Source of the DNA: Pseudooceanicola endophyticus
GTDB taxonomy: Bacteria > Pseudomonadota > Alphaproteobacteria > Rhodobacterales > Rhodobacteraceae
Assembly: GCF_018760365.1 (NCBI RefSeq)
Contig: NZ_JAHIAB010000003.1
Coordinates: forward strand, 62,001 to 126,000
Length of the DNA stretch: 64,000 bases
Direction: 5' to 3'
Part shown: positions 31,330-47,222 of the stretch, one piece after another
Position numbering within the stretch: the stretch's first letter is position 1
How the letters are laid out: the number at the start of each line of letters is the position of its first letter
The notes under the pieces: model-generated
Seen by the model: the letters and a program-made list of their open reading frames with translations, nothing else
What the model was told of the DNA's origin: nothing
The model's database searches: none
Made by a program: the position numbers and the translations under genes

Positions 31330-32238
31330 TCAGAACAGCCCCTTCATAAGGCTGTTGAGCCACAGGATCCCCGCGTCGCTGCGGAAATTCGAATGGTAGT
31401 GGGTGCGCACGTCGATGGGGGGAAAGATCTCGGGCATCTCCATGGTGCGGAACTCCCGGCTTTCGACCAGACGGGTGGCGACCGAGGCGGGGTAGATCGC
31501 CGCCAGGTCGGTGGAGCGCACGATCTCGGGGATGACCGAGAAGTGTTCGATCTGCGCGCGGATGGTGCGGAAGATGCCGTGCTGTTCCAGCACCGCGCGC
31601 ACGGTCTGGTAGCCGGTCGCATTCACCGCCACCTCGACGAAATCCAGTGTCAGAAGGCTGTGCGGCGTCAGGTGGGTTTCGCTGCAGGGATGGCCGTCGC
31701 GTACGATGCAGACAAAGCGGTCGTCCAGCAGCAACATGCTTTCGAACTCGGGCGGCGAGAGGTCGGGCAGGAAGCCGAAGGCCATGTCCACCTGGCCCGA
31801 GCGCAGCTTGGCCTCGATCTCTTCGGCCTCAAGCTGGACGGAGCGGATGCGCACCCCCGGTGCATGGGTCAGCAAGGGCGCCAGCAGCCGCGGCAGCACG
31901 TAGCTTTCCGAGATGTCCGACATCGCCACCGTGAACACGCGCGCGGATTTCTGCGGATCGAAACTGCCGTGCACCGTCATGGTCTCGCGCAGCGTGTCGT
32001 GGCAGGACTTGAACGGAATGTAGAGCCGGCGGGCGGCGGGGGTCGGCTCCATCCCCTTGCCGATGCGGGTGAACAGCGGGTCGTCGAACTGTTCGCGCAG
32101 CCGTTTCAGCGCATGGCTGACCGCCGGCTGGGTCAGGTTCAGCCGGTCGGCGGCGGCGGTGACAGAGCGCTGATCCCAGAGCGCCAGGAAGACGCGGACC
32201 AGGTTCAGATCGAAGGTGTTGAAATTCATCTGGCTCAT
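31330..32238 (-). CDS. LysR-family regulator, divergent from a flavin-reductase gene
   Basis: 302 residues. The N-terminal helix-turn-helix (LVRVFLALWDQRSVTAAADRL, LTQPAVSHALKRLREQFDDPLF) and the sequence that follows (RIGKGMEPTPAARRLY) belong to the NodD/PnbR-like group, which often senses aromatic compounds. It diverges from the flavin-reductase-domain gene across a 64-base gap and probably controls it. The start at 32238 has only a poor ribosome-binding site; ATG at 32229 is an alternative. Confidence 0.88.
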   Translation of the reverse strand: MSQMNFNTFDLNLVRVFLALWDQRSVTAAADRLNLTQPAVSHALKRLREQFDDPLFTRIGKGMEPTPAARRLYIPFKSCHDTLRETMTVHGSFDPQKSARVFTVAMSDISESYVLPRLLAPLLTHAPGVRIRSVQLEAEEIEAKLRSGQVDMAFGFLPDLSPPEFESMLLLDDRFVCIVRDGHPCSETHLTPHSLLTLDFVEVAVNATGYQTVRAVLEQHGIFRTIRAQIEHFSVIPEIVRSTDLAAIYPASVATRLVESREFRTMEMPEIFPPIDVRTHYHSNFRSDAGILWLNSLMKGLF

Positions 32239-32302
32239 GCCTGAAATTAGGACAATTCATCCAGGTTATCAAGCTGCACGCCCTATGGTGCCGGGACCCA
32301 GA

Positions 32303-33017: not shown

Positions 33018-33662
33018 ATGACCCAGATGACCCAGCCCAGGATGACCCAGACCGCCTTGCCCGAGCCCCGCAGTGCCGGCCCCGGCCGCCCGCGGGAATT
33101 CGACCTTGCCCAGGTGCTGGACCGGGCGGTTCTTGTGTTCCGCGAAAAGGGCTACAACGCCGCTTCGATCGGTGATCTCTGCGCCGCGACGAAACTGTCC
33201 TCGGGCAGTCTCTACAAGGCCTTCAAGGGCAAGCAGGGGATCTTCCTTGCCGCTCTGGCGCGTTATGTGAGCGGTCGCGATGCGGTGCTTGCGGCACGCC
33301 TCTCGGAGGCGCCCAGCGGACGGGCGGAACTGCGCGCCTTCATCTCGGTCTATGTCGAGGCCAGCCAGGGCGCGGAGGGGCGCACGGGCTGCATGGTCGT
33401 CGCCGCCCTGGCCGAGATCACCACGTTCGATCCGGCCCTGTCCGAGCCGGTGCGCCAGGCCTATGGCCGGCTTGAGGCGCGCATTCTGGGGATCTTCGCG
33501 CGCGGGCAGGCCGATGGCACGCTGCGCGTCTGCGGCGATCCGGTGACCCGGGCGCGGCTGCTGCTCTATACGCTGCAGGGGATGCGGCTGGCCGGCAAGG
33601 TCGGCTGCGCCGAGGCCGGCACCGCGCATCTGGTGGACGAGGTCCTGCAGCTTTTCGACTGA
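33018..33662 (+). CDS. TetR-family repressor of the adjacent MFS exporter
   Basis: 214 residues. Residues 30-75 form the TetR helix-turn-helix (VLDRAVLVFREKGYNAASIGDLCAATKLSSGSLYKAFKGKQGIFL). The C-terminal half is a helical ligand-binding domain containing GCMVVAALAEI, seen in AcrR-type regulators. The start is at 33018; it has no clear ribosome-binding site, and an in-frame ATG eight codons later is possible. Matching operator sequences precede both this gene and the MFS gene, a strong sign of a repressor/efflux pair. Confidence 0.9.
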   Translation: MTQMTQPRMTQTALPEPRSAGPGRPREFDLAQVLDRAVLVFREKGYNAASIGDLCAATKLSSGSLYKAFKGKQGIFLAALARYVSGRDAVLAARLSEAPSGRAELRAFISVYVEASQGAEGRTGCMVVAALAEITTFDPALSEPVRQAYGRLEARILGIFARGQADGTLRVCGDPVTRARLLLYTLQGMRLAGKVGCAEAGTAHLVDEVLQLFD

Positions 33663-33750: not shown

Positions 33751-35010
33751 ATGACAGAACGCACGCATTCCCCGCAGGCCCTGGCGCAAGTCGCGGCCCG
33801 GAAACCGGCCCAAATTCCGGCCCAGGATCCGGTTCAGGTTCAGCTACGGTCGCCGGGGCTGGCCGTCTCTCTTCTTCTGGCGCTGGCCTGTGGGGTGCTG
33901 GCCGCCGATATCTACTATGCCCAGCCGCTGGTGGGGCTGATCGCGGCCAGCCTCGGCCTTCCCGCGCCGCTCGCCGGGCTGGTGGTGACGCTGACCCAGC
34001 TGGGCTACGGGCTGGGGCTGATCCTGGTGGTGCCGCTGGCCGACATCTTCGAGACCCGACGCCTGGTCCTGACACTGGTGGGGCTGAGCATCCTGGCCCT
34101 GGTCGCGACCGCCCTGGCGCCGACTGCGGGGGCCTTCCTGGCGGCGGCCTTCTGCACCGGTCTGGGCGCCGTCGCGGTGCAGGTCCTGGTGCCCTATGCC
34201 GCGCATCTGGCGGATGAGGCAAGCCGGGGCCGGGCGGTCGGCAATGTGATGGCCGGGCTGATGCTGGGCATCATGCTGGCCCGCCCTCTGTCCAGTTTCC
34301 TGGCCGGCCTGGCGGGCTGGCAGGGGGTCTTCCTGCTGGCGGCGGCGGCGCTGGTGCCGCTGGGACTGGTTCTGCGGCTGAAATTGCCGGAACGCCGCCC
34401 CGCAGGCCGGATGGGCTATGGCGCGCTGATGCGCTCGATCCTCAGCATCGCCGCGACGACGCCGGTCCTGCAGCGCAGGGCGCTGTACCAGGCGGCAATG
34501 TTCGGGGTCTTCAGCCTGTTCTGGACGGTGACGCCGCTGTTGCTGGCCAGCCCCGCCATCGGGCTGGGGCAGGGCGGCATCGCGATCTTCGCGCTGGTCG
34601 GGGCGGCCAGCGTCCTGGCCTCTCCGATCGCCGGTCGGATCGCCGACCGCGGCTGGGGGCGCCCGGCGACCCGGCTGGCGCTGCTGGGCGGCATGGCAAG
34701 CTTTGCCCTGTGCCTCGTGCTGCCTGAGGCGCCCCGCCCGGCCATCGCCCTGCTGATCGTGGCGGCGCTGCTGCTGGATTTTGCGGTGACCACCAATCTG
34801 GTGCTGGGCCAGCGAGAGATCTTCCTGCTGGAGGCCGCCATCCGCGCCCGGCTCAATGGCATCTACATGGCGACCTTCTTCCTGGGCGGGGCCCTGGGAT
34901 CGGCGCTTGGCGTCTGGGCCTATGCCGCGGGCGGGTGGCACATGGCGGCCCTGCTGGGGCTGGCGGCGCCGACGCTGGCCTTCCTCTTTGCGCTGAGCGA
35001 GCGGCGCTAG
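33751..35010 (+). CDS. MFS transporter (drug or metabolite exporter)
   Basis: 419 residues with 12 hydrophobic segments after a hydrophilic alanine/glutamine-rich N-terminus of about 35 residues. ADIYYAQPLVGLIAASLGLP in helix 1 and the helix 2-3 loop PLADIFETRRLVL fit the major facilitator drug-exporter group. AGGA lies 6 bases before the ATG at 33751. It is controlled by the upstream TetR protein and ended by a strong terminator. The substrate is unknown. Confidence 0.9.
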   Translation: MTERTHSPQALAQVAARKPAQIPAQDPVQVQLRSPGLAVSLLLALACGVLAADIYYAQPLVGLIAASLGLPAPLAGLVVTLTQLGYGLGLILVVPLADIFETRRLVLTLVGLSILALVATALAPTAGAFLAAAFCTGLGAVAVQVLVPYAAHLADEASRGRAVGNVMAGLMLGIMLARPLSSFLAGLAGWQGVFLLAAAALVPLGLVLRLKLPERRPAGRMGYGALMRSILSIAATTPVLQRRALYQAAMFGVFSLFWTVTPLLLASPAIGLGQGGIAIFALVGAASVLASPIAGRIADRGWGRPATRLALLGGMASFALCLVLPEAPRPAIALLIVAALLLDFAVTTNLVLGQREIFLLEAAIRARLNGIYMATFFLGGALGSALGVWAYAAGGWHMAALLGLAAPTLAFLFALSERR

Positions 35011-35067: not shown

Positions 35068-36168
35068 TCAGCCGCGGATCAGGGCCGCGACGGCGCAGAC
35101 CAGCGCATCCGCGCCCCTGGCACCGACCAGTTGCAGCGACACCGGGGCTCCGTTCAGCGGCGCAAGCGGCATCGCCAGCGCCGGGTGGCCGCTGAGGTTG
35201 AAGGCGCGCACGTTGCGGGTCACCGCGACGGCGGTGGGATCGCGGCGCGCCAGTTCCAGAGTCGGCGGTGCATCGGCCAGCGTCGGCAGGGCGATCACCT
35301 CGGCCTGTCCCAGCAAGGCGTCGATCTGGGCGGTGATGCGGGCACGCACGGCTTCGGCCCGGGCGATTTCGTCCGCGTCGACATCCGCGCCGGCGGCGAT
35401 GCGCGCGGCGACGGCCGGATGCACCTTGCCGGTCTCCAGAAGCGGCCCGGAGGCGGCCCAGTTCTCGGCATTGATCAGGCTGACGCCGGCTTCGAAGGCT
35501 TCGGCGGCAGCCGGAAGCTCGGCCTCATGCACGGCGATCTCCGGGGTCCGCAGCGCGGCGCGCACGGCGGCGTCGATGGCGGGGGTGGCCTGTCCGGACA
35601 GGTAGGCGACGCGGGCGGTCTTGATCCGGCGGGCCACGAAGCCCGGATCCATCGCCGCCATCGCCCATTCCAGGTCTTCCAGGGTCGCCGCGAAGGGGCC
35701 GACGCAATCGAGGCTGCTTTCGGCGGGCATCACGCCCTTGCGGCTGAGCCGCCCGTAGCTGGGCTTCAGCCCCCAGACGCCGCAGCAGGCCGCCGGGATG
35801 CGGACCGATCCGCCGGTGTCGGTGCCGATGGCGATGCGGGCGCTGCCCTCGGCCACCGCCGCCGCACTGCCCGAGGAGGACCCTCCGGGGATCAGCTCGG
35901 GGAACTGCGCATTGACCGCGGTGCCCGCGTGATCGTTGATCCCCGAGACGCCAAAGGCCAGCTCGTGCAGAGTGGTCTTGCCGAGGACATGGCCCCCTGC
36001 GGCCAGCAGGCGCTCCACCACCTCGGCATGGGCCGGGGCGGGGGGGGCGTCCTCCAGCGCCGGGCAGCCGGCGCGGGTGGGGAAGCCTGCAATGTCGATC
36101 GAATCCTTCACCGCGATGGCAGGCCCGGCGGGATCGCCCAGCGACAGGCGCGTGACATAGGTGGTCAT
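35068..36168 (-). CDS. amidase signature family hydrolase (IacH-like)
   Basis: 366 residues, shorter than most amidases (450-500) but with the full Ser-cisSer-Lys triad: Lys21 in AIAVKDSIDIAG, the cis-serine in PGGSSSGSAAAVA and the nucleophile in GTDTGGSVRIPAACCGVWGLKPSYGR. It would hydrolyse a linear amide to acid and ammonia. It is the last gene of the catabolic operon, and its ATG overlaps the stop of the 72-residue gene upstream. In the indole-3-acetate cluster of Pseudomonas an amidase-like protein, IacH, lies beside IacI, as here. Its real substrate is not determined by the sequence. Confidence 0.88.
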   Translation of the reverse strand: MTTYVTRLSLGDPAGPAIAVKDSIDIAGFPTRAGCPALEDAPPAPAHAEVVERLLAAGGHVLGKTTLHELAFGVSGINDHAGTAVNAQFPELIPGGSSSGSAAAVAEGSARIAIGTDTGGSVRIPAACCGVWGLKPSYGRLSRKGVMPAESSLDCVGPFAATLEDLEWAMAAMDPGFVARRIKTARVAYLSGQATPAIDAAVRAALRTPEIAVHEAELPAAAEAFEAGVSLINAENWAASGPLLETGKVHPAVAARIAAGADVDADEIARAEAVRARITAQIDALLGQAEVIALPTLADAPPTLELARRDPTAVAVTRNVRAFNLSGHPALAMPLAPLNGAPVSLQLVGARGADALVCAVAALIRG

Positions 36169-36383
36169 CGCGCGCCCTCCACCAGTTCGCTCCCGGCTTC
36201 GGCCAGCAGGGTGGCCTCGGCCAGGAATTCGGCCTCGGGCAGGCCGGCGGCCAGCACCTCGCCGTCGCGGTCCAGGCCGAAGCGCAGCATGGGTCGGCCG
36301 AACGGGTCCACCCATTGCTGGATCACGGTCACGTCCACGTCCTGGAAACGGTAGACCTGCCACATTTCGGTTTTATGGGTCAT
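36165..36383 (-). CDS. hypothetical 72-residue protein coupled to the amidase
   Basis: 72 residues, rich in valine, glutamate and alanine, with no domain that I recognise. It reads MWQVYRFQDVDVTVIQQWVD then a short repeat-like LPEAEFLAEATLLAEAG tail that is probably helical. Its TGA overlaps the amidase ATG (ATGA) and it starts 18 bases after the NTF2-like gene, so it is almost certainly translated. In the iac cluster of Pseudomonas putida a small protein of unknown role (IacB) is also part of the operon, but I cannot claim homology. It might be an enzyme accessory subunit. Confidence 0.75.
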   Translation of the reverse strand: MTHKTEMWQVYRFQDVDVTVIQQWVDPFGRPMLRFGLDRDGEVLAAGLPEAEFLAEATLLAEAGSELVEGAR

Positions 36384-36401
36384 GACTGCGCTCCGCCCGG
36401 T

Positions 36402-36971
36402 TCAGGGTTTCATCAGCACCGAGGCGGACGGGTAGTCCGAGGCCCAGGTGGCCGGCAGCGGGGCGACAAAGACGTTCTCGGTGCGGTTGCGGGTGTAGCG
36501 CCAGACGCCATCGTCGCATTTCTTGAACGCGTTGAAGAGCCGCGAGGAGCGCAGCAGCGCCTTGCCGTCGGAGAACAGCCAGGGCTGCATGTGGACCCAC
36601 TGGCCGGTGGCGGTCAGCCCGTCCTCGGAGACATGGATCTGTTCGGAGGTCACGTAGTGGCAGTTCAGGATCAGCGCCGGATCCTGCTTCTGGCCCCAGA
36701 AGCCCTCGAAGTGGCGGCGCACGGCGGCCTTGCCCTCGGCGCGCCCGAACTGGCCGTCGTAATATTCGCCGACGCCTTCCCAGACGGCTTCCTCGGCGAA
36801 CAGCTCCATGATCAGGTCGATGCGCTCGGCATCGTCCTTGACGCCATATTCGGGCAGCGGCGTGTCGCAGAGGAACATGTAGCGCATCTGGACGTTGCGG
36901 ACCTCGTTGGCGGCTTCGAGGTTCTCGATGCGGCGGGTCAGCGCCTGGAGGGTGTCTTGCATGTCGGTCAT
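36402..36971 (-). CDS. NTF2/SnoaL-like protein (IacI-like)
   Basis: 189 residues of the SnoaL-like/ring-hydroxylating beta-subunit-like fold: IENLEAANEVRNVQMRYMFLCD, DLIMELFAEEAVWEGVGEYYDGQFGRAEGKAAVRRHFEGF and the C-terminal WRYTRNRTENVFVAPLPATW. Such proteins act as hydratases, isomerases or cofactor-free hydrolases on ring compounds. GGAAG precedes the ATG at 36971. It lies between the flavin reductase and the 72-residue gene. A SnoaL-like protein, IacI, is a member of the indole-3-acetate cluster, which fits this operon. Its reaction is unknown. Confidence 0.82.
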   Translation of the reverse strand: MTDMQDTLQALTRRIENLEAANEVRNVQMRYMFLCDTPLPEYGVKDDAERIDLIMELFAEEAVWEGVGEYYDGQFGRAEGKAAVRRHFEGFWGQKQDPALILNCHYVTSEQIHVSEDGLTATGQWVHMQPWLFSDGKALLRSSRLFNAFKKCDDGVWRYTRNRTENVFVAPLPATWASDYPSASVLMKP

Positions 36972-36987
36972 GGGTCTTCCGTGGAAA

Positions 36988-37503
36988 TCAGAGAGAGGGA
37001 TTTTGCGCGGGCGCCGGGGCGCCCAGGCGGTGGAAGTTGCGGTCGAAATAGACCAGGCTCTGGCTGTCGTCGCGCAGCTCAAGTGCCTCGACCCGGCCGA
37101 GGATCACGCTGTGGGTGCCGACCTCCTCGATGCCGCTGATGCGGCAGTCGCAGCGCACCATGGCATCCTTCAGAGCGGGTGCGCCGGTCGCCAGCGTCGC
37201 CCAGTCCTGGCCTTCGAAGCGCTCTTCGGGCGACAGGCCCGGGCGGCCGAACCGCATCGCCAGCTCGGCATGGTCATGGCCCAGCACGTTGACGCAGAAG
37301 ACGCCGTTGGCGATCAGCAGGTCATGCGCCGACGAGCCGCGGTTGACGCAGACCAGCAGGGTCGGCGGCGTGTCGGTGACAGAGCAGACCGCCGAGGCGG
37401 TGATGCCGTGGCGCCCGGCCGCGCCGTCGGTGGTGATGATGTTCACGGCCGCGCCAAGGCGCGACATGGCCTGCCGGAAGGCCGTCTGATCGGGATGGGT
37501 CAT
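36988..37503 (-). CDS. flavin reductase component (IacG/HpaC-like)
   Basis: 171 residues, a short-form NAD(P)H:flavin oxidoreductase: FRQAMSRLGAAVNIITTDGAAGRHGITASAVCSVTDTPPTLLVCVNR and FCVNVLGHDHAELAMRF. It should supply reduced FMN or FAD to the acyl-CoA-dehydrogenase-like monooxygenase at the head of the operon, making a two-component flavin monooxygenase. It starts at 37503, four bases after the reductase stop codon. In the iac cluster the same job is given to IacG. Confidence 0.9.
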   Translation of the reverse strand: MTHPDQTAFRQAMSRLGAAVNIITTDGAAGRHGITASAVCSVTDTPPTLLVCVNRGSSAHDLLIANGVFCVNVLGHDHAELAMRFGRPGLSPEERFEGQDWATLATGAPALKDAMVRCDCRISGIEEVGTHSVILGRVEALELRDDSQSLVYFDRNFHRLGAPAPAQNPSL

Positions 37504-37507
37504 GACG

Positions 37508-38458
37508 TTACAGGTCCAGGACAAGTTTTTGGGATTTCGCACGCGAGCAGCAGAGCATGATCTGGTCGCCCTCGGCCTTTTCCGCGTCGGTCAGGAAACT
37601 GTCGCGGTGATCGGCCTCGCCCTCAAGCAGGTCGCACAGGCAGGTGCCGCAGATGCCCTGCTCGCAGGAGACTTCGACCGCGATGCCGATGCCTGTCAGG
37701 GCCTGCACGATGGTCTGGTCGGGGCCCACGGTCACGGTCTGGCCCGATTGCGCAAGCTCCACCTCGAAGCTGTCGCCGCCGGTCTCGACCTCGACCGAGA
37801 AGTATTCCTTGTGCAGCTGCGCCTCCGGATAGCCGCGATCAGCCGCCGAGCGCAGCACGAAGTCCATAAAGCCCGCGGGGCCGCAGGTATAGACATGGGC
37901 GCCGGTGGCGGGATCGGGCAGGTCGGTGGCGGGATCGAAGGGACGGGTCGCGTCCTCTCCGCTGTCGAAATGCAGCGTCACGTTTGCGGCCCAGGGGGCG
38001 GTCGCCATTTCCGCAAGGAAAGCGGCGCTGTCCTTTTCGCGGGCGCAGTAGTGCAGCGCGAAGGGGCGGCCCTGGGTGTGCAGCGCATGGGCCATCGCGA
38101 TCATCGGGGTGATGCCGATGCCGCCGCCCATCAGGACGGAAAAGGCGGCATCCTCGGCCAGCGGAAAGAGGTTGCGGGGTTCCCCGATGCGGATCGTCGC
38201 GCCTTCGGCAAAGCCGGCGTGGATGGCGGCGGACCCCCCGCGCGAGGCGGGGTCCTTCAGCACGCCGATGCGGTAGAGCGCGCCTTCGGCGGGATCGCCG
38301 CAGAGGGAATACTGGCGCACCAGGCCCTGGCCGATCTCGACGTCGATATGGGCGCCGGGGGTGAAGGGGGGCAGCGGCGCGCCGTCAGCCGAGACGAGGT
38401 CCAGCACGACGATGTCGCGGGCCTGGGACTGGCGCCGGGTGATGGTGGCTTCGATCAT
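37508..38458 (-). CDS. dioxygenase reductase, phthalate-reductase type (IacF-like)
   Basis: 316 residues with the order flavin-binding (RQYSLCG), NAD-binding (MGGGIGITPMIAMAHAL, YTCGPAGFMDFV) and C-terminal plant-type [2Fe-2S] ferredoxin domain (CEQGICGTC with the fourth Cys in LCCSR). This is the VanB/phthalate dioxygenase reductase layout. It passes electrons from NAD(P)H to the Rieske oxygenase encoded just upstream. AAGGA lies 8 bases before the ATG at 38458. Two hairpins separate it from the beta subunit gene. Confidence 0.93.
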   Translation of the reverse strand: MIEATITRRQSQARDIVVLDLVSADGAPLPPFTPGAHIDVEIGQGLVRQYSLCGDPAEGALYRIGVLKDPASRGGSAAIHAGFAEGATIRIGEPRNLFPLAEDAAFSVLMGGGIGITPMIAMAHALHTQGRPFALHYCAREKDSAAFLAEMATAPWAANVTLHFDSGEDATRPFDPATDLPDPATGAHVYTCGPAGFMDFVLRSAADRGYPEAQLHKEYFSVEVETGGDSFEVELAQSGQTVTVGPDQTIVQALTGIGIAVEVSCEQGICGTCLCDLLEGEADHRDSFLTDAEKAEGDQIMLCCSRAKSQKLVLDL

Positions 38459-38508
38459 TGTGGCGTCCTTGTCTTTTAACGGGTCGGAACGGAAACGGGG
38501 CGAAAGAC

Positions 38509-38579
38509 GGGTCCGGCGCTGCGGGCCGGACCCCAGTCGGGGAAACCGGTCGGGCCCAAGGGGGAGGAAGGCCCGACCG
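38509..38579 (-). terminator. two tandem hairpins between dioxygenase beta and reductase genes
   Basis: Bases 38547-38556 pair with 38570-38579 (10 bp) and 38509-38517 pair with 38525-38533 (9 bp), both perfect. They begin 7 bases after the beta-subunit stop codon and have no U tract. They probably stabilise the alpha-beta mRNA end or damp read-through to the reductase. Confidence 0.6.
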
Positions 38580-38585
38580 CAGCGA

Positions 38586-39080
38586 TCACAGGATGTAGGA
38601 GATGCCCGACAGCGTGTGATCGGCATTGATCAGGCGCACGACCTTGCGGGCGATCTTCAGGCCCGCGCCTTCGCGCACCAGGGTGAACTCCACGTCGGCG
38701 ACATGGGATTTCATCCGTTCGCGGCGGTATTCGGTCAGCGTCTGCATGCAGCGCAGCTCGATGGTGACGCCATCGTCCGACAGCAGCCGGAAGCGCGACA
38801 GCGCGCGCACGGTGCGTGCCAGCGGCGAGGCCGAGACGGAGTCCCCGCCCATCATCCGCTCGACCCGCTTCGCGCGCATCACCGCGTCGTCATAGGCGTA
38901 GTTCAGATGCGCCTCGAAATCGGTCACGCCGGGTTCGACGGGCACGATGTACTTGGCATCCGCGCTCCACATGCCCAGCCAGTCGTCGAATTCGCGCTGA
39001 TCGAGGCGGTCGGCCTCAAGCCAGACGAAGGCCATGGCATCCAGCAGCGCGGTATCTTTCACGGGAGTCATCATGTCCAT
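38586..39080 (-). CDS. aromatic-ring-hydroxylating dioxygenase beta subunit (IacD-like)
   Basis: 164 residues, the standard size of the small structural subunit of Rieske dioxygenases: FVWLEADRLDQREFDDWLGMWSADAKYIVPV, VERMMGGDSVSASPLARTVR and the C-terminal IARKVVRLINADHTLSGISYIL. It forms alpha3beta3 oligomers with the preceding gene product. The ATG at 39080 lies 3 bases after the alpha stop, with GGAGG 8 bases upstream; two more ATGs follow. Confidence 0.94.
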   Translation of the reverse strand: MDMMTPVKDTALLDAMAFVWLEADRLDQREFDDWLGMWSADAKYIVPVEPGVTDFEAHLNYAYDDAVMRAKRVERMMGGDSVSASPLARTVRALSRFRLLSDDGVTIELRCMQTLTEYRRERMKSHVADVEFTLVREGAGLKIARKVVRLINADHTLSGISYIL

Positions 39081-39083
39081 GTC

Positions 39084-40343
39084 TCAGGCCTCCATCAGTT
39101 TCTTCCACTGCCGGTAGGCAGCGCGCATGCCGATCTCGGAGCTGACATCGCCCTTGACGGTGCCCTCTGCGGTCGGTTCCTCGGTCTCGGTCGAGCGGTT
39201 CAGCAGCAGCCAGAGCTCCTTGCCGCCCTGGGCGCCCTGCTGGACGCGGTCCCAGACCTCGGCGTCATCGGGGCTGCCAAAGCCCATCGGGCCCTGGAAG
39301 AACTCGTGGATGCGCAGGCGTTCGCGGTTCGCGATCTCGGGGCCGCCGTCCATGGCAAGGGCGATGTGGCGCACCTCGGTCTCGGTGACGGACACCGGCT
39401 GGAGGACACGGAAGAACGCGGCAGAGCAGCCGAGGTTGGGGAACAGGTTCACGTTGAAGCCCGAACCGCCGACGGCGCGGATGATGCGGCGCACCTGCTG
39501 CTCTTCGTGACCCTCGTCGCGCAGCGCCTGGGCAAGATCGGCGAACTTGTCGGGGATCGGTGCGTCGAGGTTTTCCTCAAGGTCGACCAGCTCGGGCATC
39601 ATGATCATGACCGAGTGGCCATTGCCCAGATCCTCGACCCAGCCGCCCTTGTTCATGATGTCGAACTGCTCTTCGGTCTCGACATCGGTCAGCTTCAGGA
39701 AGGGCTTGTGCACCAGCGGGAAATGGTAGGCGTCGGTGGTGTTCTCAAGCTGGATCTTCCAGTTGCCCGGGAACGAGAACTTGTGTTCGCCATTGGCCTT
39801 CACCGGGTAGCCGGCGCCCTGTTTCATGAACAGGTCGATCCATTTCTTGGCGCCCGCCAGGAAGTCCTCGAGCGGCTCGATCTCGTCGTTGAAGGTGGCG
39901 AAGACCAGGCCGTTGTAGGTCTCGGTGCGCAGGGCTTTCAGGCCCAGCTTGCCGCGTTCCAGCTTGCCGGCATAGCTTTCCTCGTAGGGCACGCCGCGCA
40001 GGCTGCCGTCGAGGCCGTAGGCCCAGCCGTGGTAGGGGCAGACGAAGGAGTTGGTCTTGCCCTTGGACACTTCGCACACGGTTGCGGCGCGGTGACGGCA
40101 GCGGTTCAGCAGGACGTGGATGTTCTTCTTGCGGTCGCGGGTGACGATCACCGGCTCAAGACCGACGCGGGCGCGCTTGTAGCTGCCGGGCGTCGCGATT
40201 TCGCTCTCGTGCGCGACCCAGACCCAGGTCTTCGTGAAGATCTTGTCCATCTCTGCTTCGAACAGACCGGGGTCCGTGTACAGAGTGGTCAGGGCCTTGT
40301 CGTCCTGGACGAGCGCGGCGAAGGGCGTGTCCAAATCTTTCAT
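39084..40343 (-). CDS. Rieske aromatic-ring-hydroxylating dioxygenase alpha subunit (IacC-like)
   Basis: 419 residues. The Rieske [2Fe-2S] motif CRHRAATVC...CPYHGW lies at about 80-110, and the mononuclear iron ligands are in NTTDAYHFPLVH at about 205-216, with the third acidic ligand further on. It inserts both atoms of oxygen into an aromatic or heteroaromatic ring. GAGGA precedes the ATG at 40343. It is followed directly by its beta subunit and, beyond hairpins, by its reductase. The catalytic domain length fits the benzoate/anthranilate-like and IacC-like groups. The substrate cannot be read from sequence; the operon suggests an indole-type acid. Confidence 0.94.
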   Translation of the reverse strand: MKDLDTPFAALVQDDKALTTLYTDPGLFEAEMDKIFTKTWVWVAHESEIATPGSYKRARVGLEPVIVTRDRKKNIHVLLNRCRHRAATVCEVSKGKTNSFVCPYHGWAYGLDGSLRGVPYEESYAGKLERGKLGLKALRTETYNGLVFATFNDEIEPLEDFLAGAKKWIDLFMKQGAGYPVKANGEHKFSFPGNWKIQLENTTDAYHFPLVHKPFLKLTDVETEEQFDIMNKGGWVEDLGNGHSVMIMMPELVDLEENLDAPIPDKFADLAQALRDEGHEEQQVRRIIRAVGGSGFNVNLFPNLGCSAAFFRVLQPVSVTETEVRHIALAMDGGPEIANRERLRIHEFFQGPMGFGSPDDAEVWDRVQQGAQGGKELWLLLNRSTETEEPTAEGTVKGDVSSEIGMRAAYRQWKKLMEA

Positions 40344-40374
40344 GTGGGGGTCCTCAGGTTGAAGGGGCGGGGAT

Positions 40375-40436
40375 GACCGGCAAGGGGCCCCGGCACGATG
40401 ACGCGGGGGCGTCATCGCTGGCCGGGCAGGCCGGTC
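40375..40436 (-). terminator. nested hairpin between ABC permease and dioxygenase alpha genes
   Basis: An inner 9-bp perfect stem (40396-40404 with 40409-40417, GGGG loop) lies within an outer 7-bp pairing (40375-40381 with 40430-40436). No U tract follows on the minus strand. It marks the border of the transport and dioxygenase modules. Confidence 0.55.
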
Positions 40437-40449
40437 GGAAGGGATCAGA

Positions 40450-41256
40450 TCAGAACAGGAAGCGGCGGAACCATTTCCGGGTCGCCATGCGGAAGGCCCG
40501 GTCGAACAGGTAGCCCAGGATGCCGAGGGAGATGATGCCCACGAACACCCAGTCGGTGCGCCCGAAGTTGCGCGCGGTCCAGATCATCGAGCCAAGGCCG
40601 GTCTGCGCCGAGACGATCTCGGCCGAGACGACGGTCAGGAAAGAGTTGCCCATGGCGATGCGGGCGCCGGTGATCATGAAGGGCACGGCCGAGGGGAAGA
40701 TGACGGTGGTCATCTCGGTCAGCTTGCTGGCCCCCATGGAACGGGCGGCCTGCAGGCGCAGCTGGTTGACGTTTTCCACCCCGGCGATGGTGTTGATCGT
40801 CACGATGAACACGGTGCAGTAGAAGATCAGCGCGATCTTGGTGATCTCGCCCGGGCCAAGCCAGATGACGGCCAGGGTCACGAAGGCGATCGGCGGGATG
40901 AAGCGGAAGAACTCGATCCAGGGATCGCAGAGCAGGCGGACGATCTGGAAGCGGCCCATGAACAGGCCGAGCGGCACGCCGATGATCACGCCCGCGGCCC
41001 AGCCGGCGGCGATGCGCCAGGCCGAGGCCCCGATCGCCACGAAGAGAGAGCCGTCGGCGATCATCTCGCCGGTGGTCTTGGCGACGCTCCAGGGCGAAGG
41101 CAGGAACAGCGGAGAGGTGTTCATCGCGCCAATGTGCCAGGCCAGCACGCCGATCACGACCGAGAGCACGCCGATCAGGACGCGTTTCATTCCCTCTCCC
41201 ATTGAGAAGCCAGTCCTTGCACCACGTGTCGGGGTCTGCTGGGTGGCGTCGGTCAT
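40450..41256 (-). CDS. NitT/TauT-type ABC transporter permease
   Basis: 268 residues with about six helices and the BPD_transp_1 signature region (EITKIALIFYCTVFIVTINTIAGVENVNQLRLQAARSMGASKLTEM). This is the SsuC/TauC group that imports sulfonates, nitrate, taurine, phthalates and other aromatic acids. The ATG at 41256 overlaps the ATPase stop codon. As part of the catabolic operon it should import the growth substrate. Confidence 0.92.
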   Translation of the reverse strand: MTDATQQTPTRGARTGFSMGEGMKRVLIGVLSVVIGVLAWHIGAMNTSPLFLPSPWSVAKTTGEMIADGSLFVAIGASAWRIAAGWAAGVIIGVPLGLFMGRFQIVRLLCDPWIEFFRFIPPIAFVTLAVIWLGPGEITKIALIFYCTVFIVTINTIAGVENVNQLRLQAARSMGASKLTEMTTVIFPSAVPFMITGARIAMGNSFLTVVSAEIVSAQTGLGSMIWTARNFGRTDWVFVGIISLGILGYLFDRAFRMATRKWFRRFLF

Positions 41257-42053
41257 GTTGCCGGTTCCTCTTCTCGGTTCAGGCCCTGCTGTTCGAGGGC
41301 ACGTTTGACCTCTTCGCCGATGTCGTCGCGCAGCCGGCGGAACAGCTCCAGGCATTCGGGGCTGGCGGCGTCGCGGGGGTGCGGCAGGTCGATGGGCTGG
41401 ATGGTCTTGATCCCGGCACGCGGGCCGGCGGTCATCACCACGACGCGGTCGGCCAGCAGCAGGGCCTCCCAGATGTCATGGGTGACGAAGACGATGGTGC
41501 AGCCGGTCTTGCGCCAGAGCCGGTCCAGCTCTTCCTGAAGCACTTCGCGGGTCTGCGCGTCCAGCGCGCCGAAGGGTTCGTCCATCAGCACGACGGAGGG
41601 TTCGTTGATCAGCACCCGGGCGATCTGCGCGCGCTGGCGCATCCCGCCCGACAGCTCTTTCGGGAATTTGTCGGCGGCGTGGGCAAGGCCCACCATGCCG
41701 ATGAAATGTTCCGCCTTCTTCGCGCGTTCGGCCTTGGCCACGCCGCGGATCTTCAGGCCGTATTCGACGTTCTCGCGGATCGTCAGCCAGGGGAACAGCA
41801 CCTCGGCGGACTGGAAGACGACGCCGCGGTCGAGACCGGGCTTGGTCACCCGGTCTCCGCCAACGGAGATGCTTCCAGCGACCGGGAGGAACCCGGCGAT
41901 GGCGTTCAGAAGCGTGGACTTGCCGCAGCCCGAAGGGCCCAGCAGGCAGACGAATTCGCCAGGCTTGATGTCGAGGTTGACGTTCGAGACGATCTGCGCC
42001 GTCCCGAACGAGATCCCGACATGGCCAAGCTCGATGGAAGCTCCGTTGGACAT
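41253..42053 (-). CDS. NitT/TauT-type ABC transporter ATP-binding protein
   Basis: 266 residues, single ABC domain of the SsuB/TauB type: Walker A GPSGCGKST, signature LSGGMRQRAQIARVL, Walker B VVLMDEPFGALD and switch His in FVTHDIWEALLLADRV. It lies 5 bases after the binding-protein gene and overlaps the permease gene by 4 bases. Confidence 0.94.
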   Translation of the reverse strand: MSNGASIELGHVGISFGTAQIVSNVNLDIKPGEFVCLLGPSGCGKSTLLNAIAGFLPVAGSISVGGDRVTKPGLDRGVVFQSAEVLFPWLTIRENVEYGLKIRGVAKAERAKKAEHFIGMVGLAHAADKFPKELSGGMRQRAQIARVLINEPSVVLMDEPFGALDAQTREVLQEELDRLWRKTGCTIVFVTHDIWEALLLADRVVVMTAGPRAGIKTIQPIDLPHPRDAASPECLELFRRLRDDIGEEVKRALEQQGLNREEEPAT

Positions 42054-42058
42054 GTGGC

Positions 42059-43015
42059 TTATCCCTTGTAGAAGCCGCGCTGCATGTAGTCGCGGTAGGG
42101 GACCAGTGCGTCGGTCACCTTGTTGTCGACGAGGAACTGCGCGATGCTGTCAAAGCTCTTGAAGTCCGCGTCGGTGAAGTCACGCACCGTCAGGGTCATG
42201 TCCTTGGAGACGGTCAGCGTGGTGTCGACCGGGATGTGGGTCACGGCCTTGACGGCCTCGGCGGCGCGTTTGGGGTCGTTCTCCATCACCTCGGAGCCGC
42301 GGGCGACGGCGCGCAGCACGGCCTGAAGCTCATCGGGGGCGCTTTCCAGGATGGCCTGGCTGGCGTTGGCCCAGATGGTGTCGGTATAGCCCACATCGCG
42401 CGAGGTCAGGGCGATCTTGGCGCCCTGGGCGACGGCGGTGGCGGGCCAGGGTTCCCAGGCGAAGAAGGCGTCGATATCGCCGCGCATCAGCAGGGCGGGC
42501 AGTTCCGGCGGGCCCGAGGGGACCATCTTGAGGCTTTTCGCATCCAGGCCGAAATGCGCGATCGTCAGGCCCGTGCAGTAATCCGAGATGGAGCCGGGGA
42601 TGACGCCGAAGGTCTTGATGTCCTTGGGGCTTTCGATGCCGGGGCGCAGCACCAGCTTGACGTAGAGGCCCGAGTAGTAGACCACCGCCAGCGGGCGGAT
42701 CTCGGCGCGGTTCATGCGCACCATGGTGGTGGATTCCGATGCCGAGGCCAGATCCACCTGGCCCGCCACGAGGGCGTTCATCGCCTCGCCGCCGCCCGAG
42801 TAGGTCTGCAGGTTCACCTTGACGCCCTCATCCTTGAAGTAGCCCTCGTGCTGGGCGACGAAGAAGCCCGAGAACACCGGGTCCGAGCCGACGCCGATGC
42901 GGATCGTCGTGCCGGCCGCGCGGGAAAGCGAGGGGGCAGAGAGCACCAGGCCGGAGGCGGCGAGCCCGGCGGTGGAGGCCATGAAACCACGGCGAGAGAT
43001 GTTCGTTTTTGTCAT
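42059..43015 (-). CDS. NitT/TauT-type ABC transporter substrate-binding protein
   Basis: 318 residues with a Tat-type signal peptide (SRRGFMASTAGLAASG, cleaved near residue 33). The mature part is an NMT1/SsuA-like type II binding protein: IGVGSDPVFSGFFVAQHEGYFKDEGV, ALVAGQVDLASASESTTMVRM and AFFAWEPWPATAVAQG. Relatives bind aromatic acids, sulfonates or thiamine precursors. AGGA precedes the ATG at 43015. It heads the transport module of the operon and gives the operon its own high-affinity uptake. Confidence 0.92.
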   Translation of the reverse strand: MTKTNISRRGFMASTAGLAASGLVLSAPSLSRAAGTTIRIGVGSDPVFSGFFVAQHEGYFKDEGVKVNLQTYSGGGEAMNALVAGQVDLASASESTTMVRMNRAEIRPLAVVYYSGLYVKLVLRPGIESPKDIKTFGVIPGSISDYCTGLTIAHFGLDAKSLKMVPSGPPELPALLMRGDIDAFFAWEPWPATAVAQGAKIALTSRDVGYTDTIWANASQAILESAPDELQAVLRAVARGSEVMENDPKRAAEAVKAVTHIPVDTTLTVSKDMTLTVRDFTDADFKSFDSIAQFLVDNKVTDALVPYRDYMQRGFYKG

Positions 43016-43055
43016 GTCGCGTCCTGTTGGAAGTGGTTGTCTTGTTGAGATTTTG

Positions 43056-43084
43056 GCGTCGGGCCCGGGGCGGGGGCCCGACGC
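43056..43084 (-). terminator. 11-bp hairpin between V4R and binding-protein genes
   Basis: Perfect 11-bp stem, 43056-43066 with 43074-43084, 7-base loop. The flanking run is T on the plus strand and so A in the operon mRNA, which argues against rho-independent termination in the sense direction. More likely a processing or stability element. Confidence 0.55.
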
Positions 43085-43091
43085 GGCGGTG

Positions 43092-43601
43092 TCACCGGGA
43101 CAGGGTGAAATGGCAGATGCCGGTCCCGGTCATGGCGTGGCAGCTGGTCTCCTCGACCCGGACGGCTTCGGCATTCAGCAGAAGCGGGCCGATGGCGGTC
43201 AGGATGCCACGGATGGCGCCGCAGACGGGCTGGTCGGACCGGCCGATGCCCATCGCGAAGGGGCTGTTGCGCACCTGGACGTCGATGCGGTCGGCAGACA
43301 CCGCCCCGAACGTCCAGATGCCCCACCCGAGTTCGCCCGAGGTGTCGGCAATGGTCTTCATCATCGCGTCGGGATCGACGGCGCCGCTGTCGCGGTAGGC
43401 CTTGACGGATTTGCCGCCGAATTCCGCGACCGAGGCACAGAGCGCCTCGACCGCCTCCTGCCGCGCGGCAGGCGAAAGCCGCGCGAACATCCCCATCAGC
43501 GCATCGGGGCGCATCATCAGGTAGCGGATCGCTCCGTCGCGCATCTCTCCGGCATCCGGGGTGATGGCGAGGCGCTGGTGGAAGGTTTGCGACAGATCCA
43601 T
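43092..43601 (-). CDS. stand-alone V4R-domain protein
   Basis: 169 residues. The C-terminal half carries the V4R (4-vinyl reductase) pattern: VRNSPFAMGIGRSDQPVCGAIRGILTAIGPLLL and VRVEETSCHAMTGTGICHFTL, with cysteines in the usual places. V4R domains bind small hydrophobic or aromatic ligands, for example in XylR/DmpR sensors and in BchJ. Here the domain has no attached regulator or DNA-binding part. It lies 13 bases after the monooxygenase gene, with GGAGG 8 bases before the ATG at 43601. A role as ligand carrier, enzyme partner or sensor is possible; none is established. Confidence 0.75.
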   Translation of the reverse strand: MDLSQTFHQRLAITPDAGEMRDGAIRYLMMRPDALMGMFARLSPAARQEAVEALCASVAEFGGKSVKAYRDSGAVDPDAMMKTIADTSGELGWGIWTFGAVSADRIDVQVRNSPFAMGIGRSDQPVCGAIRGILTAIGPLLLNAEAVRVEETSCHAMTGTGICHFTLSR

Positions 43602-43614
43602 CGGCGCGGCCTCC

Positions 43615-44823
43615 TTACGGGTAGCCCGCCGGGGCCGGCAGACCCGAAAGCACGGCGCCGGCGTTTTCCATCGTGACGTCGTTCAGCGCCGCGTGCTGGG
43701 TGACGACCAGGCAGTCGCGCAGGATGCGCTGCATCTGGTGGCCTTCCTGGATTGCCGCCATGCCGCTGATGCGGAAGCAGTGCTGGATCGTGTCGGTGGC
43801 CGCGCGCGCGGCGTGGCTGGCCGAGAGCCGCAGCAGGTTGTTGGTTTCAGGCGAAACCTCGGCATTGTGCGCCAGCTCGTCCCAGGCCTTCTCGGCCATC
43901 TCGTAGTAATAGGCGCGGGCGGCGCGCATACGGGCCTCGCCCTCGGCCAGGCCGGTGCGGAAATAGGCGCGGTCGGCCAGGCGGGGGGCGCCGGGCATCA
44001 GCTTGGCGCCACCGGACATCTGCGTCGCCAGGTCCAGCGCGGCGCGCGCCAGGCCAAGGTTGCAGGCGGCGTGCACCTGGGCCTGGAAGGCCAGCGGCGG
44101 GTAGCGGTAGAGCGCCTCGTCGTAGATGCCCATGGCGCCGCGCTTGCAGGTCCACATGTCGGGATAGAAGCGGTCCTTGACCTGGGTGTCATGGCTGCCG
44201 GTGCCCTGCATCCCCATCACGTCCCAGGTCTCGATGATCTCGACCTCGGCGGCGGGGGCGACGGCCATCAGCACCTCGGGGGGCAGGCCCTCGGCGGCGC
44301 GCTGGACCGAGTCCGAGCCGACGATGCCGACACCGATCCAGTCCGCGCCCATGCAGCCGCTGGCGAATTTCCAGCGCCCCGAGACCTGCCAGCCGCCGTC
44401 AACGCGTTCGGCCTTCTGCAGCGGGTAGAGACCGCCGGCATAGACCTGATCCGGGCCGGTGGCATAGATCTCTGCCTGGGCCTCGTCGGGGAGGGCGGCG
44501 ATGTAGGTGTTGGCGGAACCGAAGGCCGCGACCCAGGCCGCCGAGCCGTCCACTTCGCCGATCTTCTCGACCATCTTCAGGAAGTGGTGCGGTGCCATGG
44601 CATCGCCGCCGAATTTCGTCGGCGTCGCCGAGCGGAAGATGCGGGCTTTCTTCATCATGGCGACGATGTCGCGCGGTACGTGGCGTTTCTGGTGGATCTC
44701 GTCCCGGCGGCTGCGGATCTCGTCCAGCAGGGCCAGGAATTCCGGCTGCTGCGTGAGTTTCGAGAAATCGACAGCCTCTTCCACGGGGCCGGGCGGCTGG
44801 GCAAGGGCATTGAGCTGATTCAT
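43615..44823 (-). CDS. acyl-CoA-dehydrogenase-like flavin monooxygenase (IacA-like)
   Basis: 402 residues of the acyl-CoA dehydrogenase fold, in the group (DszC, HpaB-like, IacA, IifC) that uses free reduced flavin as oxygenase cofactor. Visible parts are RRDEIHQKRHVPRDIVAMMKKARIFR, FLKMVEKIGEVDGSAAWVAAFGSANTYIAA, GGWQVSGRWKFASGCMGADWIGVG and the C-terminal helical bundle ending near HAALNDVTMENAG. With the flavin reductase in the operon it would hydroxylate an aromatic ring. It is the first gene, with GAGG upstream of the ATG at 44823. In the indole-3-acetate and indole pathways such an enzyme catalyses the first oxidation. Confidence 0.88.
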   Translation of the reverse strand: MNQLNALAQPPGPVEEAVDFSKLTQQPEFLALLDEIRSRRDEIHQKRHVPRDIVAMMKKARIFRSATPTKFGGDAMAPHHFLKMVEKIGEVDGSAAWVAAFGSANTYIAALPDEAQAEIYATGPDQVYAGGLYPLQKAERVDGGWQVSGRWKFASGCMGADWIGVGIVGSDSVQRAAEGLPPEVLMAVAPAAEVEIIETWDVMGMQGTGSHDTQVKDRFYPDMWTCKRGAMGIYDEALYRYPPLAFQAQVHAACNLGLARAALDLATQMSGGAKLMPGAPRLADRAYFRTGLAEGEARMRAARAYYYEMAEKAWDELAHNAEVSPETNNLLRLSASHAARAATDTIQHCFRISGMAAIQEGHQMQRILRDCLVVTQHAALNDVTMENAGAVLSGLPAPAGYP

Positions 44824-45177
44824 GGCGAACCTCGTGTTGGCGTTTGATCCAAGTCAAACCGAGGCAAAAAGAATAAATACAATAGATTGTCATAATTAAC
44901 TGTATGCACGGTTTTCATATATGGGGCCGGGCTGTGCAGCGTCCCGGATCATGGGGTGCTCCGGGGTCGATTTAAAATTATAATAAAAACAATTGCTTGA
45001 ATCCGGGCTGTCAGAGCGGCCACGGGCTGTGCCGAAGGCGGAACCTGACGCCACCGTCAATGCCGTCTCGCCACTGTGAGGTGGCGTGAGTGCAGGGGAT
45101 TGCTTTTGAATTGAGCAGGCTGCGCAAGAAATGTTCAGGGAAAAATCATGTTTCACCGGAATGCGGGGGCGGGAAAC
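44824..45177. promoter_or_regulatory. AT-rich promoter region of the catabolic operon, with inverted repeat ACAAT-AG-ATTGT
   Basis: Non-coding. At 44879-44890 a perfect 5-bp inverted repeat ACAAT-AG-ATTGT lies about 56 bases upstream of the first gene, inside a strikingly AT-rich tract (44866-44925) that should hold the operon promoter. It could be the site of an activator or MarR-like repressor, but no regulator gene is next to it. A second AT-rich patch lies at 44970-44998. Confidence 0.5.
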
Positions 45178-45229: not shown

Positions 45230-46213
45230 TCAGTCCTTGGGCCAGGGCTTGCAGACCTGATCGACATTGGCCGCGGTCACCATCGGGTGCGGCACGTAGT
45301 GCGACTTGGCCATCTCCTTGCCGTTGAAGTAGTCGGTCAGGCTCTGGACGGCATAGGTCGCCTCGTCGACGGGGGATTGCAGGACGGTGCCGTACTGCTT
45401 GCCGGACTTGATGTTCTGGATGCCGACGGGTTCGCAACCGCCGCCGATCATCGCCATCTTCGTCGGGTCCATCCCGGCGCGCTCGGCGGCGATCAGCACG
45501 CCCTGCATCATGATGTCCTCGGCGGCATAGACGCCCTTGATCTGGTCGCCGTACTTGGTGAACAGGCCGGCCGCCGCCTGGGTGGAGGTGCCGGTGTCCC
45601 AGTTGCCCGGCTGGGAGCCCAGGATCGTCAGGTCGGGCGCCAGCTTGGCCAGGGTCTCGGTGAAGCCCTTGGTCATGGAGATCGTCTGGGCCTGCCCGAT
45701 GATGCCGGTGATCAGGATCACGCCGCCCTTCTTCTCCATGCCCTTGTCGTCGAAGGCCTTGACCATCAGCTGGGCGGCCTTGGCGCCCTGTTCCTCGTAG
45801 TTGCCGCCGGAATACTGGACCCAGAGGTCGTCCATCTTCTGATCCGGCTGCACGTCGGTCAGCAGCAGCGGGATGCCGGCGCGCTTGACCTTGCGCATGG
45901 AGGGGAAGAGCGCGGTGCCGTCGATGGTCCACAGCAGGATCGCGTCGGGCTTCTTGGCGATGGCCTGGTCGATCTGGGTGGCCTGCTGGGCGGCGTCGAA
46001 CTTGTTGGTGACGACCTCCAGGTCGATCCCGGCTGCGGCGGCCAGCTTGCGGATCTGGCCGTTGTAGACGGCGCAGTATTCGCAGATGTCGTCGGCGCCG
46101 AGGAAGATCACCTTCTTGCCCTCCTGCGCGCCCTCTGCCGAAGCGGCGCCGGCCAGGGCCAGCAGGCTGCCGGTCAGCAGCGTGCCAAGGGCGGTGCGAA
46201 GCGTCTGTTTCAT
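45230..46213 (-). CDS. CUT2-type ABC transporter substrate-binding protein
   Basis: 327 residues with a signal peptide (LLTGSLLALAGAASA, cleaved near 26). The mature protein is a type I periplasmic binding protein of the ribose class: QIDQAIAKKPDAILLWTIDGTALFPSMRKVKRAGIPLLLTD and GVYAAEDIMMQGVLIAAERAG. Near the start of the mature chain lies ADDICEYCAVYNGQIRKLA, a CxxC pair that is uncommon in sugar-binding relatives. It is the last gene of the operon, 37 bases after the permease gene. The ligand is unknown and need not be a sugar, given the arginase-like gene in the operon. Confidence 0.85.
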   Translation of the reverse strand: MKQTLRTALGTLLTGSLLALAGAASAEGAQEGKKVIFLGADDICEYCAVYNGQIRKLAAAAGIDLEVVTNKFDAAQQATQIDQAIAKKPDAILLWTIDGTALFPSMRKVKRAGIPLLLTDVQPDQKMDDLWVQYSGGNYEEQGAKAAQLMVKAFDDKGMEKKGGVILITGIIGQAQTISMTKGFTETLAKLAPDLTILGSQPGNWDTGTSTQAAAGLFTKYGDQIKGVYAAEDIMMQGVLIAAERAGMDPTKMAMIGGGCEPVGIQNIKSGKQYGTVLQSPVDEATYAVQSLTDYFNGKEMAKSHYVPHPMVTAANVDQVCKPWPKD

Positions 46214-46250
46214 GGAATTCCCTTTCCTGTTGGTCTCTTGATTTTGGAAG

Positions 46251-47207: not shown

Positions 47208-47222
47208 GGCGGGGGTCCTTTC

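Follow-up and report, generated by a model that had tools for sequence, protein, structure and literature searches.

A second iac-type operon with its own LysR gene in Pseudooceanicola endophyticus, probably for an auxin-family indole acid

Two types of aerobic auxin degradation, iac and iad, have been defined (passages of PMC9613470); in both, a dehydrogenase (IacE or IadJ) completes the oxidation to dioxindole-3-acetate (DOAA). In the iac type, the same passages have IacA make 2-hydroxy-indole-3-acetate (2-hydroxy-IAA) and IacE the DOAA; the conversion of DOAA to catechol needs iacC and involves iacCDF (passages of PMC9613470 and PMC7225977). In the iad type, a Rieske enzyme and the dehydrogenase IadJ carry out the first two steps (excerpt of PMC12633357). 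Here we describe a twelve-gene operon in a 64-kb stretch of the Pseudooceanicola endophyticus genome (contig NZ_JAHIAB010000003.1, positions 62,001 to 126,000; hereafter the window). It is probably a second, paralogous iac-type operon with its own LysR-type regulator, which would convert an auxin-family indole acid to catechol without IacE.

The operon and its iac relatives

An earlier note, made from the sequence alone, had described a twelve-gene operon with iac kinship. All 12 open reading frames (ORFs) were found on the minus strand, where they fill 44823-35068 as a tight operon with intergenic spacing of −4 to 127 bases, and Pfam confirmed their families. The first gene encodes an IacA-type flavin monooxygenase (MO) of 402 amino acids (aa; 43615..44823; acyl-CoA-dehydrogenase-like in Pfam and placed by trees) with the signature Y220-C226-A379. 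It is followed by a stand-alone V4R protein of 169 aa with the fold of the DmpR/MopR/PoxR phenol-sensor domain (43092..43601; Pfam and fold). The next three genes, assigned by Pfam, encode a substrate-binding protein (SBP; NMT1; 42059..43015), an ATPase (41253..42053) and a permease (BPD; 40450..41256). An NMT1/SsuA-type SBP with one permease and one ATPase is the make-up of a NitT/TauT-type ABC importer; SsuA and TauA models matched below their cut-offs. The importer and V4R genes lie inside the operon, as the earlier note had claimed. Then come the IacC-type Rieske oxygenase alpha subunit (RA; 419 aa; 39084..40343; Pfam, tblastn and tree), the IacD-type beta subunit (RB; 38586..39080), an IacF-type oxygenase reductase with NAD and 2Fe-2S domains (Fer2/NAD; 37508..38458), an IacG-type flavin reductase (Flavin_Reduct; 36988..37503) and a SnoaL-like IacI homologue (SnoaL_4; 36402..36971), the last four by Pfam and tblastn. 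A 72-aa protein of no assigned function, seen by sequence comparison in alphaproteobacterial iac-type loci (36165..36383), and an IacH-type amidase (35068..36168; Pfam and tblastn) complete the operon.

To gauge kinship, we took the iac proteins annotated on a plasmid of Klebsiella variicola (L003) as tblastn queries. The window gave matches with identities to the K. variicola proteins of 67% (IacC), 52% (IacG), 51% (IacF), 50% (IacH), 48% (IacD), 41% (IacA) and 33% (IacI). The adjacent iacC and iacD homologues by which passages of PMC9613470 recognize an iac-like locus are present as RA and RB. Among the other markers of such a locus, iacA is represented by MO, which lies in the IacA tree and is 43% identical to a P. 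putida IacA, and iacI by the SnoaL-like protein, a weak but consistent match. Klebsiella and own-genome queries for IacB, IacE and the MarR regulator IacR found no homologue in the window at E≤1e-5; a canonical copy of the short-chain dehydrogenase IacE is encoded elsewhere in the genome, and a LysR gene is present instead of iacR. RA matched IacC at 598 bits (tblastn) and is far closer to it than to the solved Rieske chains, the best of which scored 154.6 bits (phmmer). Among the best 40 of 938 records in a plasmid collection, RA matches dropped from 53% to 36% identity with none between, so that the IacC family stands apart.

Trees were calculated from 40 of 97 rows for RA and 37 of 90 for MO. 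RA, which lies within the IacC family, grouped with its counterparts from Rhizobium rhizoryzae (L001), Celeribacter neptunius (L016), Poseidonocella (L017), Xanthobacter agilis (L018), Phyllobacterium (L019) and Shinella (L020) (7 rows, 100/99), next to Methylobacterium IacC-type proteins. MO fell into a Paraburkholderia/Caballeronia branch (100/99), apart from the canonical IacA of its own genome. The outcome named by the earlier note as fatal to its reading, trees placing both oxygenases in other characterized pathways, did not occur. Long branches were L119 in the MO tree and L004, L119 and L102 in the RA tree, and the grouping of L004 and L119 may be spurious. We regard the Paraburkholderia/Caballeronia branch as LB400/PsJN-type IacA, since L004 holds an otherwise complete iac set and L118 shows the order MFS-MO-flavin reductase, as in the iacT2AG arrangement of LB400. 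Moreover, the L004 protein is 51% identical to P. putida IacA, in agreement with the 50% printed for LB400 IacA (both LB400 items from passages of PMC11676955). Because MO belongs to this Burkholderiales-type branch while RA sits by the Methylobacterium proteins, the operon looks like a mosaic in which MO and LysR come from one iac lineage and the Rieske, SnoaL and 72-aa genes from an alphaproteobacterial one.

In comparison with the iac cluster of the Pseudomonas putida 1290 type (the K. variicola plasmid and a copy in the own genome, L013), the operon shares homologues of IacA, C, D, F, G, H and I. It differs by the lack of IacB, IacE and MarR-type IacR, by the presence of LysR, the NitT/TauT importer, V4R and the 72-aa protein, by its gene order and by the Y-C-A residues of MO. 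The PsJN iac cluster, as described in part of PMC9613470, likewise has LysR in place of the MarR regulator IacR. MO is closest to the IacA branch of these LysR-regulated Paraburkholderia/Caballeronia clusters (L004, L118; 56% to L004), and a LysR gene lies by MO in L004, L007 and L118 (45-46% to the window LysR in L004 and L007). L004, however, has genes of the IacE and IacB types, one of the EthD family and MFS transporters, and no V4R or NitT/TauT importer was found in it. The nearest RA relatives are clusters of Methylobacterium, Bradyrhizobium, Rhodopseudomonas and an Acetobacteraceae metagenome-assembled genome (L021-L023, L027, L029, L034). All six have the same SnoaL and 72-aa genes, but they keep an IacE-type dehydrogenase (6/6), the MarR IacR type (5/6) and two further ABC ATPases (5/6). 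One of them, L021, has a window-like MO and LysR and yet keeps IacE; it looks intermediate. With the Variovorax iad system (IadCDE, IadJ, IadFGHI) the operon shares a Rieske oxygenase, a reductase and an importer component, but there, as passages of PMC9613470, PMC10374108 and PMC12633357 describe it, the first step is by the Rieske enzyme and the product is anthranilate, unlike what we propose here. Membership of the iad type was rejected, as RA is far from solved Rieske chains and the markers iadA/iotA and iadB/iorB are absent from the window, in which the IorB and IotA proteins of strain La 6 gave no match. In the open-licence literature we found no description of a bacterial pathway for 2-oxindole-3-acetic acid (oxIAA) or of LysR/ABC iac variants, which is no proof of their absence in print.

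Distribution, the canonical cluster and the LysR-type box

Related loci were examined in a set of 78 (L016-L093) taken from at least 580 relatives. The search for the same gene order, which had been suggested as a check, recovered the full 12-gene order in three other Alphaproteobacteria, R. rhizoryzae, C. neptunius and Poseidonocella; the arrangement is thus not due to chance. Reduced forms occur in three more. Xanthobacter has MO-V4R-SBP-ATPase-permease-RA-RB-SnoaL-72aa-LysR, with a canonical-type set upstream of it on the contig; Phyllobacterium has this order minus V4R and the importer; and Shinella has RA-RB-reductase-SnoaL-72aa-LysR within the stretch examined. In none of these six loci, nor in the window, does the operon include IacE or IacB; in all seven, V4R and the importer are either both present or both absent. 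The 72-aa family was found near SnoaL in the window and in L001, L016-L023, L027, L029 and L034, with nine invariant residues in 19 rows; the window member has no Pfam match. The 72-aa protein was considered as a stand-in for IacB and rejected, since a comparison by eye alone revealed no similarity.

The genome of P. endophyticus has two IacC-type genes, besides four further Rieske matches at 27-36% identity. The second IacC gene belongs to a complete canonical cluster on contig 8 at ~27.2-35.0 kb (L013:6224-13989), which has the order iacH-A-B-I-C-D-E-F-G and ends in a convergent MarR gene. The window operon is therefore a paralogue. This cluster, like the LysR gene and the kinship of V4R, had escaped the earlier note. 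We searched six whole genomes with a window-type RA. Four of them (P. endophyticus and three others, G000, G001, G002 and G003) have a second IacC-type RA at 61-65% and an IacE at least 51% identical to the own-genome IacE. The whole genomes of Phyllobacterium (G004) and Shinella (G005) contain no second IacC-type RA and no IacE orthologue (best IacE match, 36%). For R. rhizoryzae, searches covered the plasmid alone. Within the own family, an IacC-type RA at E≤1e-140 occurs in 12 of 394 genomes; the window type is found in the own genome alone, and the others are at 61-65%. In the class sample, two of 385 genomes, the own genome included, have any IacC-type RA. The presence of iac oxygenases without the dehydrogenase beside a canonical cluster points to a further branch of the pathway with another entry compound, and suggests an auxin relative as food of the second cluster.

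The boundaries drawn earlier proved too narrow, as two further genes accompany the operon: a LysR-type gene (31330..32238, minus strand), which probably encodes the operon regulator, and a divergent gene of the flavin-reductase-like family PF01613 (32216..32911, plus strand; probable start 32315). LysR homologues lie by the operon in all six related loci, and one also adjoins the related MO of L021; the PF01613 gene is present in R. rhizoryzae, C. neptunius and Poseidonocella, too. A 16-bp LysR-type box, AATTATGACAATCTAT (44882..44897, minus strand), lies 58 bases upstream of the MO start, and a second, AATTAGGACAATTCAT (32245..32260, plus strand), between the LysR gene and the probable PF01613 start. 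Both were found by matrix and pattern search. The matrix was built from seven sites of five other genomes, picked by eye from upstream sequences that were compared together with those of the window; in the 64 kb, it gave the two window sites the highest scores (26.0 and 25.0; next, 15.3). Once these were included, it also picked up an untrained site upstream of the Shinella RA gene (23.9). In the own genome, the pattern search with ≤1 mismatch gave three matches, two of which were the window boxes, and a reversed control pattern gave one. The best score in the canonical cluster was 11.8. The sites of La 6 (16.8) and of genome G019 (17.8) are only the best of their loci and prove nothing alone. 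From the shared box we infer that LysR controls the operon, presumably by binding to these sites.

Proposed route and its alternatives

Departures of the enzymes were counted at columns conserved in ≥95% of the other rows. Window-type RA departed at 9 of 177 such columns and window-type MO at 13 of 88. In five control clades, the same measure gave 0-6 departures for either protein (RA, of 165-178 columns; MO, of 74-79), with the own lineage's canonical clade highest in both (MO 6/79, RA 6/178). At MO positions 220/226/379, the combination [YF]-C-[AS] was present in 7 of 90 rows (window, L001, L002, L016-L019) and in none of the other 83, whereas 74 of the 90 have V-F-F. C226 occurred in no MO row outside these seven, and L021 has Y-F-F. 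The MO of G019 is an eighth member with the same signature, and the eight rows form their own clade (100/100). Position 379 lies two residues after His377, which aligns with a His of HsaA that we take to be catalytic in HsaA/HPAH. By alignment, residues 220, 226 and 379 are a putative signature of the active-site region.

We propose that the NitT/TauT importer takes up an acid of the indole-3-acetate type and that MO, with the IacG-type flavin reductase, would convert it to a 3-hydroxy-2-oxindole acid. This acid would be turned into catechol by the IacCD-type Rieske oxygenase together with the IacF-type reductase, by the SnoaL protein akin to IacI and by the amidase, and the catechol would enter ring cleavage. 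IacE and IacB would not be used, and the operon would be under LysR. A variant route with neither IacE nor an adjacent MarR gene had been foreseen by the earlier note, and is in line with the lack of homologues in the window and with catechol-type genes after the same operon in R. rhizoryzae. Within ~5 kb downstream of the operon in this species, NCBIfam models identified catB (muconate cycloisomerase; 531 bits; cut-off, 335), catA (catechol 1,2-dioxygenase; 446.5; 392) and pcaD (enol-lactonase; 296; 256). Downstream of the operon in Phyllobacterium are a muconate cycloisomerase (418 bits; cut-off, 335) and a divergent intradiol dioxygenase, whose best model scored 178 of 359 bits. These downstream ring-cleavage genes favour catechol or a relative as the product.

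Plants inactivate auxin to oxIAA as a main product (passages of PMC10374108), and the substrate is perhaps this compound. A substrate already oxidized at C2 would explain the missing dehydrogenase, the altered MO and the little-changed Rieske oxygenase; the Shinella form would then begin at DOAA itself, as RA, RB, the reductase, SnoaL, the 72-aa protein and LysR are kept and the genome has no MO of this family (best match, E 1.6e-5 over 92 residues). In its most developed form, the proposal is that of a dedicated catabolic system for oxIAA: a re-specialized IacA-type MO would hydroxylate C3 directly and by-pass IacA/IacE, with the IacCD route operating here and an isatin-type route on the La 6 plasmid, while the Shinella form would use DOAA and V4R would monitor uptake or product. 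As a whole, this system is tentative and we consider it rather improbable. If oxIAA is the substrate, the end product to which plants inactivate auxin could be recycled by bacteria, and surveys of genomes that rely on IacC/IacD pairs would class some loci wrongly as IAA degraders.

Several observations weigh against the reading of the operon as a separate, LysR-controlled route without IacE. The canonical-type cluster with IacE in four of the six whole genomes could supply the missing step. Every genome searched also has many short-chain dehydrogenases (SDRs) with 30-36% identity to IacE, so that its place in Phyllobacterium and Shinella could be filled by an unrelated SDR. An SDR at 31% to IacE directly follows the LysR gene of Poseidonocella. 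Part of the difference in RA and MO may be a matter of general speed, as the canonical clade of the own lineage likewise departs more in MO than in RA. A site scoring ≥20 was present in 27 of 84 control loci, albeit in only 2 of 53 with a GC content over 0.6; AT-rich loci reach high scores by chance, and the box argument thus holds for GC-rich loci only. The box test was also not fully blind, the pattern being drawn from sites that include those of the window. In Shinella, an amidase homologue (47%) lies ~11 kb from RA on the same contig, and the set may therefore be less reduced than the locus indicates. Finally, no catechol 1,2-dioxygenase of the own genome exceeds the TIGR02439 cut-off (the highest score is 144 of 392 bits), and for catechol 2,3-dioxygenase the top match falls just short of the cut-off (302.5 of 320.2).

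A serious rival, though on balance an unlikely one, is that the operon serves as a second isozyme set for ordinary IAA, with the IacE step provided in trans by the canonical IacE or another SDR. MO and RA are clear relatives of IacA and IacC, and in the four genomes with a canonical-type cluster an IacE is co-resident. In X. agilis, moreover, the two sets lie near each other on one contig, and the second is without its own reductase, flavin reductase and amidase, as if these were shared. This is opposed by the separate LysR gene with a box that was not found in the canonical cluster, the separate importer and the altered MO residues, and by the two genomes that have the operon core without an IacE orthologue. 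The claim that IAA itself is the substrate has become less likely in view of the co-resident canonical cluster and the altered MO.

It is also conceivable, but doubtful, that the operon serves another indole or oxindole acid, one whose side chain differs, such as the oxindoles of indole-3-lactate or indole-3-pyruvate, or oxIAA conjugates opened by the amidase. The MO signature swaps two Phe for smaller residues, immediately upstream of the Xanthobacter MO lies a gene that passes the cut-off of an L-lactate dehydrogenase model, and related MOs occur with other enzymes. Plasmid pLA6_001 of strain La 6 has MO and LysR (45%) in one region with MarR, a PF04199 cyclase, an HpcH/HpaI-type aldolase, an FAD-linked oxidase and IorB/IotA (iad markers according to PMC9613470), a gene set that resembles a lower pathway; V4R (44%) adjoins a TRAP importer there, and no Rieske alpha match was found on the plasmid. 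Genome G245, with the same MO at the same coordinates and taken as the La 6 strain, has a canonical iac cluster on another contig. In G019, GntR-TRAP-V4R-HpcH is near MO-LysR-flavin-reductase homologue (38%) on the other strand. However, RA is little changed at its conserved columns, which argues for the usual Rieske substrate, and neither the aldolase nor the FAD-linked oxidase of La 6 has a homologue in the window.

The non-indole alternative, degradation of an aromatic amide or another N-aromatic acid, is very improbable: the amidase, NitT/TauT importer and SnoaL families are generic and MO also resembles phenol-type hydroxylases, but both oxygenases, the reductases, SnoaL and the amidase match the iac set and the trees agree. 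Of the earlier note's reading, the iac kinship is borne out; its aromatic amide finds support only in an amidase gene, which canonical clusters have too (iacH).

The V4R protein and neighbouring genes

V4R has the same fold as the DmpR/MopR/PoxR sensor domain at 13-18% identity, but it has no other domain; the AAA+ and helix-turn-helix DNA-binding domains of these regulators are missing. The sensor domain of these regulators has a Cys/Glu/Cys/Cys zinc site. All 52 rows of V4R have C127, C154 and C163, which align with the MopR cysteines, with a spacing of 27 and 9 versus 26 and 8 in DmpR. E151, three residues before C154, is also invariant and would be a candidate for the zinc Glu, but Glu172 of DmpR is five before Cys177 as printed in a passage of PMC7264223. 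V4R adjoins importer genes in the window type, in La 6, in L158 and in G019, and probably binds an aromatic substrate or product. In L158, L160 and L161 it occurs with HpcH and an FAD-linked oxidase but no close MO; V4R is therefore not tied to window-type MO. A description of V4R in catabolic operons was not found in the open-licence literature, which again does not prove absence in print.

Within the window, a TetR regulator gene (33018..33662) and an adjoining MFS transporter gene (33751..35010), both on the plus strand and assigned by Pfam, split LysR/PF01613 from the operon. Neither was found in the loci of C. neptunius and Poseidonocella, where there is no such split, and the TetR gene probably does not belong to the system. 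On the operon's strand and upstream of it (45230-49773) lie a Peripla_BP_4 sugar-type binding protein gene, two permease-like ORFs (by eye) and a region of ATPase homology, with no counterpart among nine upstream ORFs scanned in L001, L016, L017 and L018. A sigma-70 promoter scan found 0 sites (mean of 0.9 in shuffles), and terminator-like sites numbered four versus a mean of 5.4 in shuffles. The small ORF before the amidase gene had raised the idea of an AtzE/AtzG-type amidase. This was rejected, as the amidase scored 178.5 bits versus an AtzE cut-off of 425.75 and the 72-aa protein lacks a Pfam match.

Some further loci are of interest in their own right. A marine plasmid (L151; CP031586.1, 38000-76000) carries an iad-like set with an IacA-type MO and V4R by a TRAP importer, and no Rieske alpha match was found. 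A plasmid of Caballeronia sp. SBC2 (L007) has an IacA-type MO with flavin reductase, HpcH-type aldolase, FAD oxidoreductase, thiolase and AMP-binding genes, and no Rieske pair was found in the stretch; it is perhaps another iac/iad hybrid. In Shinella (L020:2919-9786), a sugar-type ABC importer, different from the one upstream of the window operon, a xylose-isomerase-like TIM barrel and Gfo/Idh/MocA genes directly precede the reduced Rieske operon, perhaps reflecting glycoside use or coincidence. In X. agilis (L018:1-3992; G003 contig 28), the two IacC-type Rieske genes are ~11 kb apart, with a porin gene and the L-lactate-dehydrogenase-type gene between them. The iac loci of three Pseudomonas (L042, L051, L056) contain a second iacC-D-F set that is nearly identical or close.

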